Shown here in pieces: positions 12,512-17,508 of a stretch of DNA of 64,000 nucleotides (its first letter is position 1; the number at the start of each line of letters is the position of its first letter). Made by a program: the position numbers and the translations under genes. The notes under the pieces were generated by a model. The model made no database searches. It was not told where the DNA came from and worked only from the letters and a program-made list of their open reading frames with translations. Origin of the DNA: Halodesulfovibrio aestuarii DSM 17919 = ATCC 29578 (lineage in GTDB: Bacteria; Desulfobacterota; Desulfovibrionia; Desulfovibrionales; Desulfovibrionaceae); the NCBI RefSeq assembly GCF_000384815.1, contig NZ_ARQF01000021.1, positions 496,001 through 560,000 of the forward strand. The letters run 5' to 3'.

Positions 12512-13387
<876 letters not shown>

Positions 13388-13487: not shown

Positions 13488-13501
13488 TGTAGGAACCTAC
13501 A
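13488..13501. promoter_or_regulatory. Putative shared enhancer site 1 (TGTAG-N4-CTACA)
   Basis: TGTAGGAACCTACA is a 14-bp palindrome apart from its two central bases. It lies about 81 bp from the nifH -24 box and 107 bp from the nifV -24 box, the usual distance for an activator of sigma-54 promoters. The TGT...ACA ends recall the NifA site TGT-N10-ACA, but the spacer here is 8. Confidence 0.7.
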
Positions 13502-13517
13502 AACCTGTCTACAGAAA

Positions 13518-13531
13518 TGTAGTTTCCTACA
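13518..13531. promoter_or_regulatory. Putative shared enhancer site 2 (TGTAG-N4-CTACA)
   Basis: TGTAGTTTCCTACA repeats the half-sites of site 1, exactly 30 bp away (about three helical turns, same DNA face). It is about 77 bp from the nifV -24 box and 111 bp from the nifH -24 box. An extra half-site CTACA lies between the two at 13509-13513. Confidence 0.7.
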
Positions 13532-13606: not shown

Positions 13607-13623
13607 TGGCACTATTAATGCTT
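13607..13623 (+). promoter_or_regulatory. Sigma-54 (-24/-12) promoter of the nifV-modAB operon
   Basis: TGGCAC (13607-13612) and GC (13620-13621) keep the exact GG-N10-GC spacing; the -12 box reads ATGCTT. The start of transcription should be near 13633, leaving a leader of about 60 bases before nifV. Confidence 0.85.
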
Positions 13624-13695: not shown

Positions 13696-14829
13696 ATGTT
13701 GTTAGATACAACGTTAAGAGAAGGTGCTCAGTTATTCGGTGCATATTTTACTATAGATACACGAAAGCAAATTCTATCCAGCTTATTACAGGTTGGGGTA
13801 GATGAAATAGAATTGGGGTGGATAGGGCAAAGTGAGCTGACTGAGTTTTCGACGTACGCTCGAAGTCAAACATCTTCTATAAAGTTGAGTGTGTGGTCGC
13901 CGTGTAGAGAAGCTGACATTCGCGCAGTGGCAAAGTTGCCCGTGGATAGAATAAACATTGGCGTTCCATCGTCTGATTTACATATAGAAAAAAGATTATC
14001 CACGCAGCGGGAAGTGTTACTGGAACGCCTTGTCGCAAATATCAATGTGGCAAAAGAATGTGGCATTCCTTACATCTCAGTTGGGCTGGAAGATGTGTCG
14101 AGAGCTGATGAGTTATTCGCTTTACAGATGGCATTGGTAGCAGAAACGCATGGAGCATCCCGTGTGAGGCTAGCAGATTCTTTAGGCCAATTAACACCTC
14201 TTACTATGGCTAAACTCATGAACCGGTTTCGGGATGCGTTTAGTATAGACATAGCTGTTCACTGTCACGACGATTTCGGTATGGCTACGGCTAATTCTAT
14301 CACTGCGTTAGAATGTGGTGCTGATTATGCCGATATAAGCGTTCTTGGGGTGGGTGAACGGTCAGGAATCGCGGCAACGGAAGAGTTGGTCGCTTATTTA
14401 GCAATAAAACAGAAAGACACTCGTTATGCTCCTGATATTCTAAAGCGGTTATGCGAATTTGTAGCTTCTGCGGCGCATGTATCCATCCCGCGAACTAAAG
14501 CTGTTGTGGGAACTGATGTCTTTGCTTGCGAGTCCGGTTTGCATGCACACGCTTTGAGTAAGTCTCCAGAGTTATTCGAGCCCTACGATCTTGAACAAGT
14601 AGGGATTACAAGGAAAATTCGTGTCGGGAGCAAAAGTGGCAGAAGTGCTGTGCTGATAGCTCTAAATGAGTATGGGCTTGTGGATGAAGCTAATACTCTT
14701 GCTCAGGAATATATTACGGACGTGACGAAAGCAGTATGCCAATTGTCCTGTAAGCTCGAAAGGCCGTTAACTGAAGATGAATTGGGTGATGTGTGGAAAG
14801 AGACAATACATGGGGTTGAAGTTCATTAG
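13696..14829 (+). CDS. nifV: Homocitrate synthase NifV
   Basis: 377 residues of the DRE-TIM metallolyase family: it joins acetyl-CoA and 2-oxoglutarate to homocitrate, the organic ligand of FeMo-co. Metal and catalytic motifs are LDTTLREGAQ (residues 3-12) and HCHDDFGMATAN near 190. GERSGIAATEELVAYL matches the conserved GxGERxGN/I segment. The length agrees with NifV and lacks the regulatory domain of LeuA. GGAG lies 6 bases before the ATG. It is the first gene behind its own sigma-54 promoter, and the position beside nifH argues for homocitrate rather than isopropylmalate or citramalate synthase. Confidence 0.93.
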   Translation: MLLDTTLREGAQLFGAYFTIDTRKQILSSLLQVGVDEIELGWIGQSELTEFSTYARSQTSSIKLSVWSPCREADIRAVAKLPVDRINIGVPSSDLHIEKRLSTQREVLLERLVANINVAKECGIPYISVGLEDVSRADELFALQMALVAETHGASRVRLADSLGQLTPLTMAKLMNRFRDAFSIDIAVHCHDDFGMATANSITALECGADYADISVLGVGERSGIAATEELVAYLAIKQKDTRYAPDILKRLCEFVASAAHVSIPRTKAVVGTDVFACESGLHAHALSKSPELFEPYDLEQVGITRKIRVGSKSGRSAVLIALNEYGLVDEANTLAQEYITDVTKAVCQLSCKLERPLTEDELGDVWKETIHGVEVH

Positions 14830-14878: not shown

Positions 14879-15631
14879 ATGTTGAAGAAAAAATTTACTA
14901 TATGTGTATTGCTGCTGATGGTTTTTGCGGTAGTCGCGCAAGCAGGTGCGACATCGAAAGTTGGGAAAGTCTCCATCGCTTGTGCTGCCAACTTTACAAA
15001 TACGCTTAAAAAACTGGCTGCTGAATATGAAAAAACAGGAGCAAAGGTGACATGTTTATTTGGATCAACAGGAATGCTATACGGACAGATTATTAATGGT
15101 GCACCCTTTGATATTTTTTTCGCAGCGGATGAAAAACGACCAGCGATGTTGTTCGATAAAAATATTGCATTGCAACCTAAGGTCTATGCTCAGGGGAAAG
15201 CAGTATTGTGGTCTATGAAGCCAGAGTTAATGTCCCTGCCTACATGGACGGACGTACTTGTTTCTCCTCATCTGGTGCATTTAGGAATTTCAAATCCTAA
15301 AACAGCGCCATACGGAGCAACAGCAGATGCTTCGCTACGGGGTGCACAGCTATATTCAGAAGTTGAATCTAAAATCGCAGTTGGCAAAAGTGTGGGAACT
15401 GCTTTTCAATATGGGTATACGGGCGTCGCAGATGCGACTTTTATCGCATTATCACAAGCTCTTTCTGAAAAAGGTCTGCAGGGGAAATATTGGGATATCC
15501 CGAATTCAAATAAAATTAATCAGGCTGCCTGTATTTTGCGATCAGGTGACGTTGAAAGTGCCAAAAGATTTATGAAATGGATTGAAAGCAAGGAAGCACG
15601 TTATATTATAAGTAGGTACGGTTATGAGTAG
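14879..15631 (+). CDS. modA: Molybdate ABC transporter substrate-binding protein ModA
   Basis: 250 residues with an N-terminal signal peptide (KKK, hydrophobic core, cleavage near AQAGA at about residue 24). The mature part begins KVSIACAANFTNTLKKLA, typical of ModA, followed by CLFGSTGMLYGQI and PFDIFFAADEKRP, which line the oxyanion pocket. It captures molybdate in the periplasm for ModB. It starts 49 bases after nifV without a promoter of its own, so molybdate uptake is tied to nitrogenase expression. Its stop overlaps the modB start by 8 bases. Tungstate binding cannot be excluded from sequence. Confidence 0.93.
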   Translation: MLKKKFTICVLLLMVFAVVAQAGATSKVGKVSIACAANFTNTLKKLAAEYEKTGAKVTCLFGSTGMLYGQIINGAPFDIFFAADEKRPAMLFDKNIALQPKVYAQGKAVLWSMKPELMSLPTWTDVLVSPHLVHLGISNPKTAPYGATADASLRGAQLYSEVESKIAVGKSVGTAFQYGYTGVADATFIALSQALSEKGLQGKYWDIPNSNKINQAACILRSGDVESAKRFMKWIESKEARYIISRYGYE

Positions 15632-16382
15632 TGAAGACATTAGTGCCCTATGGGTAACGTTCAAGCTTGCAACAATTGTTATGATAGTGTTGCTGCTATT
15701 CTGTACGCCTCTTGCGTATATGTTGGCCAAAGGGAATATGCGGGGAAAACGCTATATACAAGCCGCCTGTAATTTACCAATGGTTTTGCCTCCAACTGTA
15801 TTAGGGTTCGGACTGTTGTTCATCATGGGGCCATACTCTGTGGTTGGCAGTACTTGGAAATCGCTAACAGGGTTCTCCCTTACGTTTTCTTTTACCGGAC
15901 TAGTTATAGGCTCCCTACTGTATAGTTTGCCTTTTGGGATATTGCCTATGCAGGCTGCTTTTGAAAAAATTGATGATAGCCTTATAGAAGCAGGTCGGGC
16001 TCTAGGATTTTCTAATATACAAACTTTTTTTTATATAGTGCTTCCTAATAGCCGTGGTGGGATTGCAGCATCAGCAGCACTTATCTTTGCTCATACAGTT
16101 GGGGAATTCGGAGTAGCATTAATGATAGGCGGCTCTATTCCTCATCAAACTCGGGTGATCTCTATCGCAATTTTTGAGCATACGGAAAGTATCAATTATG
16201 AGGCCGCAGCTGTACTTTCTTTAGTTTTGCTTGTTGTTAGCTATATTTCTTTAGTTTTTATAGGAAAAAGTTCTTCTAGTGTTCTAATGGGACGGAACTT
16301 TGCTGGAAATAACAATCCTAAAACAATGAGGTTGTCTTATGGAACCGCGCAAACCACATGTGTCAGAATTTGTGACCAGTGA
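15624..16382 (+). CDS. modB: Molybdate ABC transporter permease ModB
   Basis: 252 residues with five or six membrane segments. The cytoplasmic EAA loop that docks the ATPase is visible as EAGRALGFSNIQTFFYIVLP (about residues 120-140). PMVLPPTVLGFGLL and HTVGEFGVALMIGG are family signatures. The C-terminal 30 residues extend past the last membrane segment and their codons overlap the next gene by 44 bases, which is unusual. No modC ATPase gene follows, nor occurs elsewhere in the window, so the ATPase must be encoded elsewhere or shared. Confidence 0.93.
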   Translation: MSSEDISALWVTFKLATIVMIVLLLFCTPLAYMLAKGNMRGKRYIQAACNLPMVLPPTVLGFGLLFIMGPYSVVGSTWKSLTGFSLTFSFTGLVIGSLLYSLPFGILPMQAAFEKIDDSLIEAGRALGFSNIQTFFYIVLPNSRGGIAASAALIFAHTVGEFGVALMIGGSIPHQTRVISIAIFEHTESINYEAAAVLSLVLLVVSYISLVFIGKSSSSVLMGRNFAGNNNPKTMRLSYGTAQTTCVRICDQ

Positions 16383-17295
16383 AAATGTTGAGTTGTACGA
16401 GAACGGAAGTGTTGCCGTATGTTCGTTTGTTGCTCCTTGTGTCGTAGCAACTCAAGCCGGAAGTCTTATACCTCAATATTCTACAGACGATCTTCGTAAG
16501 AAAACTCTTCAGGCAGTAGCTTTTTACCGTAGTGGTTTTTTACGTTCATTGCCCTTAGAGACGCAGAGCTCAGTGTTAACTCCTATAGGTGAAATGTCCG
16601 CAGAGCTAATCACCTTTTATGAGAGTGGTGCCGTAAAAAGAGTGTTTCCTCTTAACGGAAAGCTCTCTGGGTATTGGGGGGAGGAAGATGAAGCCTCTCT
16701 TGCCAAGAGTATTTCCATAGATATTGGTGGCCATAGCGTAAGAGCAAAATGTATTAATGTTAGTTTTTATGAGCAGGGTAGCGTAGAGAGCATAACTCTT
16801 TGGCCCAATGAAACTATCGCATTAAATACTCCGGCAGGAAAAGTGCAGACGCGAATAGGAGCAAAATTTAGCCATGCGGGCGGGATTCTTTCTGTTGAAC
16901 CGGCTGTTCCTACCGTAGTAAAAACTCCGATTGGAAAGATAACTGCGTACGATCAAGATGCTGTCGGAGTTATAGGTGATAACAATTCATTAGCGTTTTT
17001 TGAAACTGGTGCCATTCGTCGTGTCACGGCTATGCATACAAAAATTATTGCGAAAGACTTAGCAGGTAAGATAACCGTATTGCATCCTGCAACACGCGAA
17101 AGTTTATGCGGGAATGAGGAAGAAGAACTTATTCCAATGGTTATAGAATTTAAGCCTAACGGAATACAAGTGACCACAGGTGTAAGTGATTCGTCATATA
17201 ACCTTAGTTATGATGAGTATGATATAAAAACACAAACATTCATTCCTGGGTTTGACGCTGTTTCATTTTGTAACCCTATACCCAAACAAATGTGA
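16339..17295 (+). CDS. Uncharacterised repeat protein of the nifV-modAB operon
   Basis: I do not recognise a named family. The 318-residue protein has no signal peptide or membrane segment and looks cytoplasmic and beta-rich. It has at least five copies of a short core, [FL]-[YF]-x-x-G-x-[VIL] (LYENGSV 19, FYRSGFL 62, FYESGAV 93, FYEQGSV 143, FFETGAI 220), in part alternating with T-P-x-G motifs (81, 164, 196) that start the next strand. The pattern recalls MORN/YwqK-like repeats. GELNGKLSGYW-type spacing after the third copy (NGKLSGYWGEEDE) breaks the regularity. It overlaps modB by 44 bases and ends at a strong terminator, so it is the last gene of the sigma-54-driven operon. A role in molybdate or cofactor handling is inference from position only. 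Confidence 0.9.
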   Translation: MEPRKPHVSEFVTSENVELYENGSVAVCSFVAPCVVATQAGSLIPQYSTDDLRKKTLQAVAFYRSGFLRSLPLETQSSVLTPIGEMSAELITFYESGAVKRVFPLNGKLSGYWGEEDEASLAKSISIDIGGHSVRAKCINVSFYEQGSVESITLWPNETIALNTPAGKVQTRIGAKFSHAGGILSVEPAVPTVVKTPIGKITAYDQDAVGVIGDNNSLAFFETGAIRRVTAMHTKIIAKDLAGKITVLHPATRESLCGNEEEELIPMVIEFKPNGIQVTTGVSDSSYNLSYDEYDIKTQTFIPGFDAVSFCNPIPKQM

Positions 17296-17319
17296 TTTTT
17301 TTGCAAGCAAAGTTAATAC

Positions 17320-17353
17320 AAAAAAAAGCCCGCTACGTAGCAGGCTTTTTTTG
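17320..17353. terminator. Bidirectional terminator after the nifV operon
   Basis: GCCCGCTACGTAGCAGGC forms a compact stem flanked by A8 on the left and T7 on the right, so it can stop transcription from both strands. It ends the nifV operon and may also stop read-through from the DJ-1 gene 300 bases away. Confidence 0.88.
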
Positions 17354-17508
17354 TATTTAGTAAACAGCATTGCTGTCCAGTCCGCAGTTAAGCTGAAAAG
17401 GGGAGTATCAATACCTGTGGACGGTTACTGAAAATAGCGATTCAGACTTTCGGTACGGGATAAGTAGGTGTTTTAAAAACAGAAAGTAGAGTATTTCGAT
17501 AATTTTTT

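Follow-up and report, generated by a model that had tools for sequence, protein, structure and literature searches.

A MORN-like repeat protein that accompanies nitrogenase in anaerobes is probably a helper of the enzyme and not part of molybdenum uptake

Nitrogenase requires a set of accessory proteins, most of which are known through work on aerobic or facultative models. We analyzed a 64,000-nucleotide stretch of the Halodesulfovibrio aestuarii DSM 17919 genome (the window), in which ORF318, the gene downstream of nifV, modA and modB, represents an unnamed protein family that probably assists nitrogenase itself, as a helper so far undescribed, rather than taking part in the uptake of molybdenum. 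The family was detected in 44 genomes of Desulfobacterota and Clostridia, and nifH scored above its curated cut-off in all 44. ORF318 is a concrete candidate for a missing nitrogenase maturation step in anaerobes, and also for inclusion in parts lists for transferring nitrogenase to other hosts. The link between ORF318 and nitrogenase is strong, whereas the molecular step at which the protein acts is one that we infer from gene neighbourhood only.

The window contains a divergent nif region: the minus strand carries nifH-nifI1-nifI2-nifD-nifK, the plus strand nifV-modA-modB-ORF318. The nifD gene is of the Mo type (TIGR01282). The features of this region are:

12512-13354, minus strand: nifH, start of the divergent nifH-nifI1-nifI2-nifD-nifK (TIGR01287, above the cut-off)
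13488-13531, no strand assigned: compound palindrome TGTAGGAACCTACA...CTACAGAAATGTAG...TGTAGTTTCCTACA in the nifH-nifV interval, presumed binding site of the activator (NifA)
13607-13621, plus strand: sigma-54 -24/-12 element TGGCACTATTAATGC of nifV-modA-modB-ORF318, the best-scoring one within 400 bp ahead of nifV
13696-14829, plus strand: nifV, homocitrate synthase (TIGR02660 the best NCBIfam match; HMGL-like Pfam domain, 3.8e-56)
14879-15631, plus strand: modA, molybdate-binding protein (TIGR01256, 170 bits, cut-off 62.5)
15624-16382, plus strand: modB, molybdate permease (TIGR02141, 203 bits, cut-off 182.6)
16339-17295, plus strand: ORF318, nitrogenase-associated MORN-like repeat protein (ATG start, 318 aa; homologues in 44 nifH-bearing genomes)
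about 17316-17356, plus strand: predicted intrinsic terminator (hairpin of -16.6 kcal/mol, z about -5.3, followed by a U tract)

The TIGR02660 match of nifV (298 bits) lies below the strict cut-off of that model (463). According to the coordinates, ORF318 is the last gene of nifV-modA-modB-ORF318 and starts within modB with an overlap of 44 nt, as the initial annotation had stated; an overlap of this kind would be typical of translational coupling. The unit appears to be ended by the strong putative hairpin terminator at about 17316-17356, which was picked up by RNA folding and is absent from the list produced by a simple pattern scan. ORF318 is a real gene, which confirms the first observation made on this DNA. 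The modA and modB genes of the window (14879-16382) stand without modC, and no modC above the TIGR02142 cut-off was found in the whole genome, so the ATPase must come from another transporter.

The ORF318 protein contains five [FY]xxxGxhxxh repeat cores (at residues 62, 93, 143, 177 and 220), interleaved with T(P/Q)xG motifs (residues 38, 81, 164 and 196). Among 38 homologues the mean number of cores per protein is 4.8, compared to 0.6 in shuffled sequences, and that of TPxG motifs is 3.6, compared to 0.15; the beta-repeat pattern originally claimed for this protein is therefore far above chance. Alignments of the homologues (A1 and A3) revealed three strongly conserved, family-specific blocks: R[VI]FPLNGxLSGYW, SLTLWPG and DxDAVGIxGDxNSL. 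The window protein showed no signal peptide or membrane segment (hydropathy over 19 residues at most 1.7), and by prediction it is cytosolic, soluble and all-beta. The copy in genome G765 is an intact ORF of 295 aa.

No NCBIfam model fits the family, and the window copy falls below every Pfam cut-off. The earlier view that ORF318 is neither a transporter nor a known Nif protein agrees with the Pfam and NCBIfam searches, which gave no transporter or molybdate-binding domain and no AnfO or PF02579 match. MORN_2 (PF07661) was matched at E<=0.01 by 10 of the 38 homologues, the window copy giving no match, and its gathering cut-off of 29.6 bits was passed by four Clostridial homologues (L068, L070, L071 and L076; 32.5-33.8 bits). 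The ORF318 repeats may thus be distantly related to those of MORN_2 proteins, with which they have the repeat cores in common. They differ in that their units are longer, with TPxG strands inserted, and in motifs specific to the family (R[VI]FPLNGxLSGYW, TLWPG, GDxNSL), and most Desulfovibrionales homologues, like the window copy, obtain no MORN_2 score.

Matches to DUF7406 (in 8 of the 38 members, 1e-4 at best, with the window copy below the cut-off) and to WD40/WRAP-T (3e-5) were taken as beta-repeat cross-hits. A PDB sequence search with the single ORF318 protein returned nothing, and no homologue whose biochemical function is known was detected. Two AlphaFold models, built from two-sequence alignments, were weak (pLDDT 60.6 and 56.5) and consisted of all-beta hairpin arrays; they align best to the single-layer sheets of OspA (Z <=7.0), which is no proof of the fold. 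Foldseek searches with these models gave no convincing match, and the top match, to Rhs repeats (TM 0.11), was not used. A literature search, with most subscription journals outside its reach, found no paper on the family.

The distribution of ORF318 was surveyed by profile searches in about 990 distinct genomes from two large groups, covering relatives of the window organism, its phylum, the Clostridia and the Clostridia phylum. Among the relatives, ORF318 is present in 20 of 30 nifH-positive and 0 of 29 nifH-negative genomes (Fisher 1e-8), and among the Clostridia in 9 of 28 and 0 of 263, respectively (Fisher 2e-10), these being the two sets in which both genes were scanned in every genome. 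The Fisher values overstate independence, as the sequences are related. The splits within genera and the test of detached promoters (see below) are independent of these values: ORF318 and nifH occur together in six genomes of the window's own genus and are both lacking in four, while in genus g40 the corresponding numbers are four and two. Further carriers comprise eight Desulfobacterota and seven genomes of the Clostridia phylum, all nifH-positive; one of the 44 carriers, G927, has a truncated remnant alone. Plasmid records, the N. vulgaris nif plasmids among them, yielded no homologue; a published N2 screen in D. vulgaris (PMC10102598) may for this reason say little about ORF318.

ORF318 is absent from 10 of the 30 nifH-positive relatives. 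The gene is dispensable and nifH alone is no guarantee of its presence, which counts against an accessory function. AnfG was found in only 4 of the 66 nifH-positive genomes scanned; most carriers, the window genome included, therefore have Mo nitrogenase only, so ORF318 serves Mo nitrogenase as well. In a test of co-transfer, the distances of ORF318 and NifD correlated (r 0.70, Mantel p 0.0005), but shared descent accounts for this correlation. The NifD of g40 is closer to that of Clostridia, and its ORF318, by identity, is not.

The nif control that the initial annotation had assumed for ORF318 gained support from two sides. In the window, the sigma-54 site TGGCACTATTAATGC was significant against Markov-resampled sequence (p = 0.015), and 11 of 15 detached copies of the gene carry a nif-type sigma-54 promoter. 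The latter were scored with position weight matrices derived solely from the regions upstream of nifH, taking 364 upstream regions of other genes in the same loci as background. For the 11 detached Desulfovibrionales copies, the sigma-54 site and the nifH-type palindrome ahead fall in the top 1.1% of this background; the count includes two ParA-linked copies at the operon start and covers about seven distinct genomic settings. The promoters of detached copies are the best evidence that the link to nitrogenase is functional and not one of mere neighbourhood. With nifH in 44 of 44 carriers and nif-type promoters far from the nif cluster, the suggestion of a function linked to N2 fixation in anaerobes is supported.

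The four exceptions among the 15 are G018, G025, G019 and G024. In G018, ORF318 is divergent from a NifA-like gene; in G019 (L039, 7350-9316) and G024 (L040, 8679-10654) it directly follows a ParA/MinD-like gene, and an upstream sigma-54 site was not found. Outside Desulfovibrionales, G181 and G209 have a sigma-54-like site, with a palindrome that is not convincing.

Ahead of the window nifV, no textbook NifA site (TGT-N10-ACA) was found, and a shorter palindrome fits instead. The pair at 13488-13531 combines TGTAG-N4-CTACA with CTACA-N4-TGTAG and is conserved at the nif promoters of relatives. Paired sites of this type lie upstream of nifV in G007, G016, G005 and G006, and related sites precede nifH and detached copies of ORF318. 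These palindromes, unlike the textbook site, are probably the NifA site of this group, with NifA as the presumed binder.

Neighbouring genes were identified with simple ORF rules and by their resemblance to a small set of references, some of them being left without a name. Counting how often homologues adjoin nif or mod genes, as proposed initially, placed 19 of 45 ORF318 loci within nif or anf clusters and modAB beside the gene in 4 of 44 intact loci. Of the 19 linked copies, seven follow nifV in Desulfovibrionaceae, with modAB intervening in four of them, and four stand last in the nif cluster of g40. The remaining eight are Clostridial; here ORF318 diverges from nifH, immediately precedes nifH, occupies the far end of the nif cluster, or lies within an anfHDGK locus. 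The commonest direct neighbour is AnfO (PF09582), found at 13 loci (E 1e-33 or better where scored). Among the 28 nifH-positive Clostridia, ORF318 and AnfO occur together in 8 genomes, each alone in 1, and neither in 18 (p 2.5e-5). Most Desulfovibrionales copies are in genomes without AnfO, which counts against an AnfO-linked function. Two copies lie inside Fe-only anfHDGK loci, in G395 (L076) and G930 (L119), with anfO as a neighbour in both. G395 has two ORF318-anfO pairs, the first at its Mo nif cluster and the second immediately after anfHDGK, and the Fe-only identity of the latter locus is given by AnfD (1054 bits) and AnfG (175 bits).

AnfO was also seen in nine genomes with Mo nitrogenase and without AnfG, the Fe-only delta subunit (G167, G223, G248, G364, G421, G489, G506, G547 and G548; loci L064-L067, L069, L070, L074, L075 and L103). 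The published role of AnfO, guarding the Fe-only nitrogenase, therefore cannot be its only one.

The reading that we favour, and hold tentatively, is that ORF318 is a nitrogenase accessory protein dedicated to N2 fixation in anaerobes, controlled by NifA and sigma-54 and likely to act in component-1 maturation beside AnfO. The N-domain of AnfO binds the immature (apo) FeFe protein and its C-domain captures FeMo-co and FeV-co, preventing misincorporation, and NafY plays a comparable part for the MoFe protein (PMC11938142, PMC9310841). As a soluble, single-sheet (MORN-like) beta-repeat binding protein, ORF318 would bind immature component 1 (NifDK or AnfDGK) or its assembly scaffold, and would either keep the apo-protein competent or screen which cofactor enters. 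It would act in the pathway of AnfO (and of NafY in Azotobacter) whatever the heterometal, and hence would not be a molybdate transport or storage factor. Component-1 maturation is the most economical choice because ORF318 shares the genomic setting of AnfO, appears metal-independent and has the look of a soluble scaffold. A bolder version, which we regard as possible and somewhat less likely, makes ORF318 the founding member of a new class of assembly factors, a MORN-like protein that would grip apo-component 1 whichever the isozyme and, with or without AnfO, decide when or which cofactor is inserted.

Like ORF318, AnfO is encoded in nif and anf operons; it is a soluble accessory protein dedicated to nitrogenase, as ORF318 would be. 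However, the two sequences are unrelated: AnfO combines an apo-FeFe-binding N-domain with a cofactor-capturing C-domain (PMC11938142), whereas ORF318 is a beta-repeat protein with no detected AnfO-type domain, occurring without AnfO in most Desulfovibrionales. Neither ORF318 nor its homologues match PF09582, AnfO being a separate neighbouring gene. The cofactor carriers and apo-component-1 chaperones NafY, NifX and VnfY are, like ORF318, absent from many diazotrophs, and the level proposed to be shared with them is component-1 maturation; PF02579 (Nitro_FeMo-Co) has no match in the window protein or in 37 homologues.

Four other explanations were ranked in the order protection or regulation, homocitrate, molybdate handling and hitch-hiking. 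ORF318 might act on nitrogenase activity and not on maturation, as a protective or post-translational regulator (redox stress, inhibitors, ammonium switch-off) that binds the mature components. The co-occurrence and promoter evidence would fit equally well, NifI1/NifI2 are present in many linked clusters, and in G939 (L120, 8461-11675) ORF318 stands in a row with a P-II gene and an amtB-like gene of 458 aa, another nitrogen-regulated setting. We nevertheless consider such a function unlikely, since the commonest direct partner, AnfO, is a maturation protein (PMC11938142) and no known switch-off or protection partner recurs at ORF318 loci.

It is less likely still that ORF318 is a partner of NifV, serving the supply of homocitrate or its insertion into the cofactor. 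The gene immediately follows nifV in G006, G013 and G031, and nifV-modAB in four further genomes, while nifV genes precede anfO-ORF318 in g40 and are found near ORF318 in G548; anf loci would fit as well, because homocitrate is common to the Mo, V and Fe-only cofactors. However, nifV does not adjoin ORF318 at the Clostridial nifH-proximal or anf loci L069, L070, L073, L075, L076, L116 and L119, and many genomes have a nifH-divergent nifV with ORF318 elsewhere.

The original proposal of molybdate handling, storage or delivery to the FeMo-cofactor did not stand and is now very improbable. ORF318 is last in nifV-modA-modB-ORF318 in four related Desulfovibrionaceae (the window genome, G007, G016 and G005), but 40 of the 44 intact loci have no adjoining modAB, nifV-ORF318 occurs without modAB in the relatives G006, G013 and G031, and G098 has nifV with modAB-like genes and no ORF318. 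Since Fe-only nitrogenase contains no molybdenum, the two copies in anfHDGK loci make a molybdate-specific role unlikely, and Pfam and NCBIfam indicate no transporter or molybdate-binding domain. ModA and ModB share a transcription unit with ORF318 in the four related genomes and yet have no sequence relation to it, ORF318 being found in Fe-only operons and mostly without nearby mod genes. The remnant in G927 (L118, 8127-8756; 210 aa, covering only ORF318 residues about 163-254) is preceded by the genes of a ModA / Mo permease / WtpC-like transporter, by a RarD-like gene and by a CBO0543-family gene; together with the four nifV-modAB-ORF318 loci, this Mo/W transporter setting forms a residual molybdenum connection. 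Cofactor assembly was the better half of the original proposal.

Least probable, by a little, is the hitch-hiking of a MORN_2-type protein of unrelated function with nif islands: MORN_2 repeats are widespread and functionally diverse and the gene is absent from many nif-positive genomes, but detached copies in about seven genomic settings have a nif-type promoter, presence follows nifH across the sampled genomes though most Desulfovibrionales copies lie outside the cluster, and G395 has one copy per nitrogenase isozyme.

Two further observations concern the neighbours of ORF318. A small conserved protein with the motif HGTLSRKxRxGxKxQINEG and no Pfam family adjoins it in two distant Desulfobacterota groups (L029, 7888-8199; L032, 8091-8381; L061, 5083-5334; L062, 3546-3833). 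In G013 (L024, 6618-8719), homologues of the two genes at 101-1290 of the window immediately adjoin nifV-ORF318; judged by eye, we take these genes and their G013 homologues to resemble a 2-hydroxyacyl-CoA dehydratase and its activator.
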